DNA from: Bacillota bacterium
GTDB taxonomy: Bacteria > Bacillota > Desulfotomaculia > Desulfotomaculales > Ammonificaceae
NCBI GenBank assembly: GCA_020063185.1
Contig: JAGUUY010000051.1
Location: forward strand, 1-40,217
Length of the DNA: 40,217 nt
Reading direction: 5' to 3'
Part shown: positions 10,365 to 38,743 of the stretch, piece by piece
How the letters are laid out: the number at the start of each line of letters is the position of its first letter
Numbering within the stretch: the stretch's first letter is position 1
Translations under genes and position numbers: made by a program
Notes under the pieces: model-generated
Told to the model about the DNA's origin: nothing
Seen by the model: only the letters and a program-made list of their open reading frames with translations
Databases searched by the model: none

Positions 10365-10406
10365 ACTCTTCGCTCCCCGATAAAAAGCTAATAAGATGGA
10401 CCTCTG

Positions 10407-10469
10407 GGGTCCGTTCTACGTTCTACGTTCTACGTTAAAACTAATACTGCATGGAATCCGGGTCCGTTT
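10407..10469. repeat. GGGTCC-GTTCTAC x3-GTTAAAA-19 nt-GGGTCC module
   Basis: GTTCTAC at 10413, 10420, 10427; GGGTCCGTTY at 10407 and 10460. Confidence 0.8.
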
Positions 10470-10547
10470 AAGGTTAAGAATTCACAAGCCAGAAGTCATC
10501 ATCCAGAATCTAAATCTAGAAAATATCAAGGACTTGAAACGTGGCCC

Positions 10548-25244: not shown

Positions 25245-25271
25245 TCCAGCACTCAGAAATTGAGTGCTGGA
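25245..25271. repeat. Perfect 11-bp inverted repeat sharing the arms of the TIR elements
   Basis: TCCAGCACTCA-GAAAT-TGAGTGCTGGA. Confidence 0.8.
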
Positions 25272-26274: not shown

Positions 26275-26332
26275 AACACCTCATCCTCCCTCTGAAAACA
26301 GTTCGAAGTCAGGCTCAAAAGGATTGACTTCG

Positions 26333-26388
26333 GGGTCGGTTCGAAGTTCTAAGTTGACCTTAAATTGATGAACCATCAGGGTCTGTTC
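26333..26388. repeat. GGGTCG-GTTCGAA-GTTCTAA-GTTGACC-19 nt-GGGTCT module
   Basis: GGGTCNGTTC at 26333 and 26379; GTT every 7 bp at 26339/26346/26353. Confidence 0.75.
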
Positions 26389-26571
26389 AACGTTGATGAT
26401 AACACCGAACAGCCAAGGTCGGCTTCAAATCAGTCAGCCACCGTTTACACCTGTTACCCGTCCGGGATGCAAAACATCCAAAATCCAGCCAACCAAGAGC
26501 GCCCTGCCTGTTTTTTGTTTTTCATTATAACGGGCGACTCGTCCCACCGCAATACCAAGCTGCCCGGTCAA

Positions 26572-30037: not shown

Positions 30038-30170
30038 AGCTAATACTGATGGCCCAGCACTCAGCGTAGTACTCGAACTTCGAAAGAGACACTTTCTTTA
30101 GCCTAAATGAAATGGTATTCTTTAAACCTCAAAGACTGTACTGAGTGCTGGGTGGGATCCGTTCAACGTT
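30038..30170. repeat. TIR element copy A (MITE-like), core 30053-30152
   Basis: Perfect 12-bp terminal inverted repeat CCCAGCACTCAG/CTGAGTGCTGGG; closely similar to 38437-38562. Confidence 0.85.
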
Positions 30171-30212: not shown

Positions 30213-30241
30213 AACCTCCAACCTCTCACCTCTCACCTCTC
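30213..30241. repeat. Period-7 array (ACCTC every 7 bp at 30214/30221/30228/30235) overlapping a stop codon
   Basis: AACCTCC AACCTCT CACCTCT CACCTCT; TGA stop at 30228-30226. Confidence 0.85.
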
Positions 30242-38436: not shown

Positions 38437-38562
38437 AGCTGATACTGATGGCCCAGCACTCAGCGTAGCTTTTGAACTTCGAAGGAGAGACCTTCATTAG
38501 CCTAATGAAATGGTAGCCTTTAAACCTCAAGCACTATACTGAGTGCTGGGTGGGGTCCGTTC
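38437..38562. repeat. TIR element copy B (MITE-like), core 38452-38550
   Basis: Same 12-bp terminal inverted repeats as copy A and closely similar interior. Confidence 0.85.
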
Positions 38563-38608
38563 TAAGTTCTAAGTCAAGCTCAGACGGATACACCTTTAGG
38601 GTCTGTTC
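38553..38608. repeat. GGGTCC-GTTCTAA-GTTCTAA-GTCAAGC-19 nt-GGGTCT module
   Basis: GGGTCNGTTC at 38553 and 38599. Confidence 0.75.
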
Positions 38609-38662
38609 ACGGTTTGGGGTTCCTTAACTTCGAACCGACCCTTTCTTCATTTAGCATTAGCT

Positions 38663-38743
38663 GAACTGTGAACTTCGAACTGACCCGTAATTCGCGCCGC
38701 ATTGGCTTGAACTTCGACTCTCGACTTTCGACTCGTGACTTAT
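38663..38743. repeat. Two period-7 arrays: GAACT at 38663/38670/38677 and GA(A/C)CT-type at 38709/38716/38723/38730/38737
   Basis: Counted directly from sequence. Confidence 0.8.

Follow-up and report, generated by a model that had tools for sequence, protein, structure and literature searches.

Tiny mobile hairpins, the double-hairpin elements, are found in the rRNA variable regions and spacers of Allomyces mitochondria, and we know of no in-frame protein insertions by mitochondrial hairpin elements of this type. The Rickettsia palindromic elements (RPE; Ogata 2000/2002), which have counterparts in Wolbachia, are palindromes of about 100-150 bp with a 12-bp terminal pairing (PMC2229807), and they occur in RNase P RNA as well as in frame in proteins (PMC2229807, PMC10969869). 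It has not been clear where the intervening sequences and extra arms of rRNA, RNase P RNA and riboswitches come from. Here, we analysed a stretch of 40,217 nucleotides from a Bacillota bacterium (the window), which carries two related copies, A and B, of a small palindromic sequence. These copies probably belong to E, a superfamily of palindromic mobile elements that are non-autonomous and combine fixed 12-bp ends with freely diverging interiors.

The core of copy A, a member of the long class, was delimited by sequence check and BLAST to 100 bp on the forward strand (30053 to 30152). It is bounded by a left terminal inverted repeat, CCCAGCACTCAG (30053 to 30064), and by a right one on the reverse strand (30141 to 30152), which reads CTGAGTGCTGGG on the forward strand. 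Copy B has a core of 99 bp on the forward strand (38452 to 38550). An earlier note on this DNA had given the core coordinates, the ends and the internal hairpin letters of both copies, and these match letter for letter; the absence of an ORF or transposase that it reported for A is borne out and extends to B. Copy A is flanked by cobB/cbiA-type and cutA-type genes, both on one strand, and copy B by the genes for a TPR protein and an M23-type peptidase; at these two sites the element is most likely a neutral intergenic load. An additional short-class copy of 27 bp, absent from the earlier note, is located on the forward strand at 25245 to 25271, in the gap between the genes for a MarR-type regulator and heme o synthase, and has the organization TCCAGCACTCAG-AAA-TTGAGTGCTGGA (TCCAGCACTCAGAAATTGAGTGCTGGA).

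Similarity between A and B reaches past the 12-bp ends by about 15 bp on each side, with 87-88% identity between 30038-30170 and 38437-38568, which greatly exceeds what chance would give. The flanks of both copies are part of an interspersed intergenic repeat of about 45 bp, which is also present uninterrupted in the same genome. On the forward strand, the left flank of A, AGCTAATACTGATGG (30038 to 30052), lies outside the core and forms one half of such a unit, and the right flank, TGGGATCCGTTCAACGTT (30153 to 30170), the other half; the flanks of B occupy 38437 to 38451 on the left and 38551 to 38568 on the right (TGGGGTCCGTTCTAAGTT), also on the forward strand. The repeat, with the consensus GGGTCnGTTC..AAGTT..AGCTnAnACnGATnGACCTTTG, is abundant and arranged in arrays, and its units are seen in the window at 10386-10470, 26326-26394 and 38577-38690. 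One uninterrupted target unit, AGCTAATAAGATGGACCTCTGGGGTCCGTTC (10386 to 10416, forward strand), represents the empty form and contains a small hairpin, GGACC..GGTCC, and a second, AGCTCAGACGGATACACCTTTAGGGTCTGTTC, is placed just downstream of copy B (38577 to 38608, forward strand). At four loci (L011, L013, L017 and L018) the core is inverted relative to the same flanks, and at two others (L019 and L020) it is present without these flanks; the element is the core, with the flank excluded.

The earlier note had considered that A and B might be the only copies. Nine BLAST matches in the same genome correspond to about seven related copies, one match (L009) being the reverse-strand self-match of B and two others (L006 and L008) a single copy split over two contig ends. 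These two ends (contig C183 end and contig C132 start of G000) overlap within that copy and probably join, the assembly breaking there. For the 12-mer CCNRGCACTCAG, we counted 7+9 occurrences in this genome and 25+27 in the relative G005, against 1 and 0, respectively, for its reversed control pattern. Using a covariance model and end patterns to find relatives, the element was detected in five of the eight genomes of the window's assigned family. Of the 113 genomes of the order, 19 contain the pattern CCCAGCACTCA-N65..85-TGAGTGCTGGG; a single genome holds up to 56 copies, whereas the reversed controls gave none, and an even draw from the phylum gave 17 carriers among 399 genomes. Hosts are thus Ammonifex-like and Desulfofundulus-like Bacillota, other families of the phylum and two Patescibacteria; a contig scan identified as carriers Peptococcaceae GB_MAG19_121, Ammonifex sp. 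SURF_55, Thermoanaerobacteraceae Yes71-27, Desulfofundulus thermosubterraneus DSM 16057, a Desulfovirgula sp. and the two Patescibacteria genomes. One of the latter, Parcubacteria CG2_30_36_38, has two copies with one interior and a diverged third. Searches with the long pattern and with copy A found no viral, phage or plasmid carriage, Rfam has no family for the element itself, and no relevant paper naming the end sequence in a bacterial context was found among open-access full texts.

The ends of the superfamily read CCCAGCACTCA followed by G, A or C. Their 12 outermost base pairs form a stem that hardly varies in sequence, and pairing drops at position 13. Among 127 non-redundant copies, stem positions 1-11 show 19 two-sided changes, compared to a shuffle mean of 1.8 and a maximum of 7, and position 12 alone shows 52 (shuffle mean 12, maximum 20). 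The same covariation holds in 67 copies that the exact-end pattern did not retrieve. Folding energy is low (z from -2.4 to -4.8). Beside the stem, a purine at -1 and a pyrimidine at +1 are found in about 90% of long copies, and no constant tetranucleotide tag was seen. The idea that the stem extends outward into the flanks in general was rejected, as pairing there is lower than in shuffled sequences; a direct flank-pairing test likewise gave no general excess of pairing between the two flanks. One 52-bp copy (L007, 1514-1565) has lost much of its interior but kept both ends, and its arms carry a matched A-to-G and T-to-C change.

The situation differs for the internal hairpin, which reads GAAAG-AGACA-CTTTC in copy A (30082 to 30096, forward strand) and GAAGG-AGAGA-CCTTC in copy B (38481-38495). 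The earlier note had taken the A-T to G-C difference between them as a compensatory change that argues for selection on a folded structure, and proposed looking for covariation in other copies. In an alignment of 15 copies from five genomes, the hairpin is paired in 77.3% of cells, which equals the mean obtained by shuffling the 3' letters (77.3%; 314 of 500 shuffles as high), so that its pairing is not conserved in other copies. Within the same alignment the A-U form is private to copy A, so that the paired change is isolated, an unpaired A/C intermediate is seen in two copies (L003 and L004), and RNAalifold gave no net covariation bonus in the interior. By the refutation criterion of the earlier note itself, this part of its reading fails. 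Constrained pairing applies to the terminal 12-bp stem, where two-sided changes far exceed the shuffles, and not to the hairpin in which it had been proposed.

The covariation of the stem could reflect selection or a hairpin-templated correction, and the data do not separate the two. That the matched changes are mutational, one arm serving as template for quasi-palindrome correction of the other, is a tentative explanation, compatible with a mobile element. It agrees with the perfect arms of many independent copies, including palindromes of 47 nt in the G101 rnpB gene and of 40 bp in G061 (C34), and with the confinement of covariation to the contiguous outer stem. Alone, however, templated correction does not explain why the arm sequence is constant across genera.

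Mobility of E was assessed by comparison with G002, a genome of the same genus, in which the gene order around A and B is kept at 82-88% identity. Site A in G002 is an 84-bp spacer with no copy. Copy B is absent at its orthologous site, although homologous DNA of its left flank is found beside the empty site: G002 reads ACTGATGG-ACCTTTA-GGGTCCGTTC and the window ACTGATGG-E-TG-GGGTCCGTTC, in surroundings 82% identical, with the junction 3' of the site reading GGGTCC in both. The element plus 2 bp thus stands where G002 has 7 bp at the tip of a small hairpin. Given one comparison, copy B may instead have been lost in G002, but the intact target unit of G002 matches empty units elsewhere in the window. 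Where comparison is possible, the native stretch replaced amounts to 7 bp at site B and about 10-25 nt in genes. This apparent replacement of native bases is read from one close empty site (82%) and from alignments to other genera, and in the protein alignments ordinary loop drift could mimic it.

Several copies reside inside RNA genes. Rfam matches place the element in the RNase P RNA of Desulfofundulus, Desulfovirgula and other families, and it is also found in 23S rRNA (G012 and G074) and in a cobalamin riboswitch (G009). The 28-bp form is present inside a SAM riboswitch of G004, and in G005, G015 and G029 it lies in or next to domains of group II introns. In aligned rnpB genes, P12 arms with element ends occur in many genomes and are shortened in G015 and G101, others having a plain short P12; the arm may represent one ancient insertion, vertically inherited within the order. 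Both 23S copies are hairpin insertions in variable rRNA helices, which we take to be helices 63 and 98 in E. coli numbering. Since the interior of the G012 23S copy resembles those of the rnpB copies of G112 and G105 better than any of 300 shuffles, the 23S and rnpB copies belong to one family. At every element site whose structure is known, the location is a hairpin arm. In other genomes (L201, L198, L212 and L225), the rnpB P12 holds a different palindromic repeat (GAGAGGTGAGAGGTT...), similar to CTCACCTCTCACC at 30215-30240 of the window, so that more than one family of repeats, unrelated to each other, seems to enter P12. We also observed that the 5S rRNA match of G074 (L132, 1848-2037) covers about 190 nt, so that this gene, which adjoins the element-bearing 23S gene, seems expanded.

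Protein genes carry mainly the 28-bp form, namely CobN (G001), MutS and CobQ (G002), an amidase (G005) and a helix-turn-helix ORF (G002). These coding copies always share one frame, P-S/G-T-Q/H-x-x-E-C-W/R. The insert is absent from relatives, or represented by a decayed-looking version in the MutS of G004. CobN has become longer by 5 residues net, CobQ by 6, the helix-turn-helix ORF by 3 and MutS by 1; as the insert encodes 9-10 residues, native bases appear to have been lost. MutS of G001 contains a 103-bp long form, in frame and in the same loop as the 28-bp form. From a weak protein resemblance of its interior came the idea that coding copies enclose native sequence between two written ends; as the element's interior is missing from the empty form of site B, the idea was dropped as a general rule. 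Otherwise, long forms are intergenic, 85 of 89 being outside any long open frame. An open reading frame through them is not enriched in the frame of the end peptide, frame 0 being open 26 times versus 29 for shuffled interiors. Their recurring peptide is limited to the end peptide.

Lengths, taken from lists of single ends and therefore without length selection, fall into discrete classes of about 28, 47 and 97-101 bp, with almost nothing between. G061 has copies of 29, 40, 46-47 (10 times), 97-103 (22 times) and 152 bp, and G005 of 27-29 (9 times) and 97-100 bp (12 times), with none in between. The 126 long copies form 46 interior clusters, whose interiors are unrelated and yet share one length of about 97 bp. 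Fixed ends and a fixed length with unrelated interiors point to some recognition machinery.

An ordinary MITE, derived by deletion from a DDE transposon and mobilised in trans by a transposase recognizing the 12-bp ends, is an unlikely source of these copies. The earlier note's wording, MITE-like with 12-bp TIRs, correctly describes how large the copies are, how they end and how they are dispersed, and the lack of an ORF and the empty orthologous site are also consistent with such an origin. However, none of the 101 long copies shows a target-site duplication of 4-9 bp; 10-bp duplications were seen in two of them, one in repeat-rich flanks. No transposase-sized segment separates convergent exact ends in the f1 family lists and G061, and all pairs in the two tabulated genomes measure 27-152 bp, except one 17-kb pairing of two single ends. 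In addition, the 46 interior clusters have one length, and a transposase complex would find little space on the 28-bp forms. No autonomous partner with the same ends was found in the exact-end lists of the eight family genomes and G061, and the analysis yielded no enzyme that mobilises E.

Even less probable is a REP/REPIN-like element moved by a Y1 transposase (HUH, RAYT/IS200-type) acting on folded single-stranded DNA. The copies are short and palindromic, the targets are hairpins that are not duplicated, and in Desulfofundulus (G029 and G055; L177, L180, L182 and L183) copies of the element and recurring linkers take turns, forming BIME-like mosaic arrays. Nevertheless, Y1 is missing from G005 and from G008 and G047, two element-rich genomes that are 99% complete, and is common in genomes without the element, and the stem has no constant tag beside it. 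At two further loci (L179 from 11805 and L184 from 8759), tandem 11-bp TGAGTGCTGGG repeats directly follow the right end of a copy. Least probable of all is a selected structured RNA or protein-binding hairpin, immobile as DNA, with covariation reflecting its function: the stem covariation, the retention of the rnpB P12 arm over many families and the low folding energy are in line with it, but the interiors are unrelated between clusters, the named interior hairpin lacks covariation, sister genomes differ in presence or absence, and the core varies in orientation and occurs in frame in coding sequences.

The mobile superfamily E is thus the preferred reading. Its copies are dispersed, with fixed ends that evolve in pairs, an empty orthologous site and no target duplication; they are observed in both orientations within an interspersed repeat, in variable RNA arms and in frame in conserved proteins. 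In the mechanism that we propose, the element would replace the tip of a pre-existing small hairpin, hairpin-tip targeting being shown at sites of known structure and only there. Most likely, it would enter as single-stranded DNA folded into a hairpin, or through a template switch from one palindrome to another, and mobilisation would involve an enzyme acting in trans and not encoded by E. RNA hosts could tolerate the element because, closed by its stem, it forms an additional arm complete in itself, and protein hosts because one frame of the ends is open (P-S/G-T-Q/H ... E-C-W/R). A bolder possibility, which we consider doubtful, is a class of transposase-independent mobile hairpins that spread by exchanging the tips of hairpins already present, through replicative template switching or single-stranded hairpin capture. 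If true, rRNA intervening sequences, the varying arms of RNase P RNA and riboswitches, and in-frame protein insertions would all come from one source, in more than one phylum. Identical ends link the RNA-gene insertions to a dispersed repeat and to the in-frame inserts of CobN, MutS and CobQ, and cultured Desulfofundulus species, which hold tens of copies, make the question testable.

Comparison with known systems places E closest to several families of small hairpins. Like MITEs, it is small, TIR-bounded, non-coding and dispersed, but it differs by the lack of target duplication and of a partner transposon in our searches. It shares with REPIN/RAYT (PMC3116915, PMC3733652) short palindromes, conserved ends, less conserved middles and mosaic clusters, whereas Y1 association and the GTAG/CGTC tag are absent and one terminal stem replaces two REP hairpins. 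The Allomyces double-hairpin elements and the repetitive hairpin-forming elements of sponges (PMC2800124) are also tiny mobile hairpins of rRNA variable regions and spacers, but organellar ones. The 23S intervening sequences (PMC4990558) and the 5S expansions, including those of Desulfotomaculum (PMC7812874), are paired-end rRNA hairpins of related bacteria and may be related phenomena; unlike them, E has the same ends in rnpB, riboswitches, introns, proteins and intergenic DNA, which points to a mobile source. E lives in the manner of RPE, with which it has in common the size of about 100-150 bp, the 12-bp terminal pairing and the intergenic, in-frame and RNase P RNA copies. It differs in having three discrete sizes, including the 28-bp form, in its additional sites (23S rRNA, riboswitches and a group II intron) and in ends that are conserved over several families outside the Rickettsiales, while its long copies are not kept open as an ORF. 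Compared by description, E is set apart from RPE by host phylum, ends, size classes and the absence of a maintained ORF.
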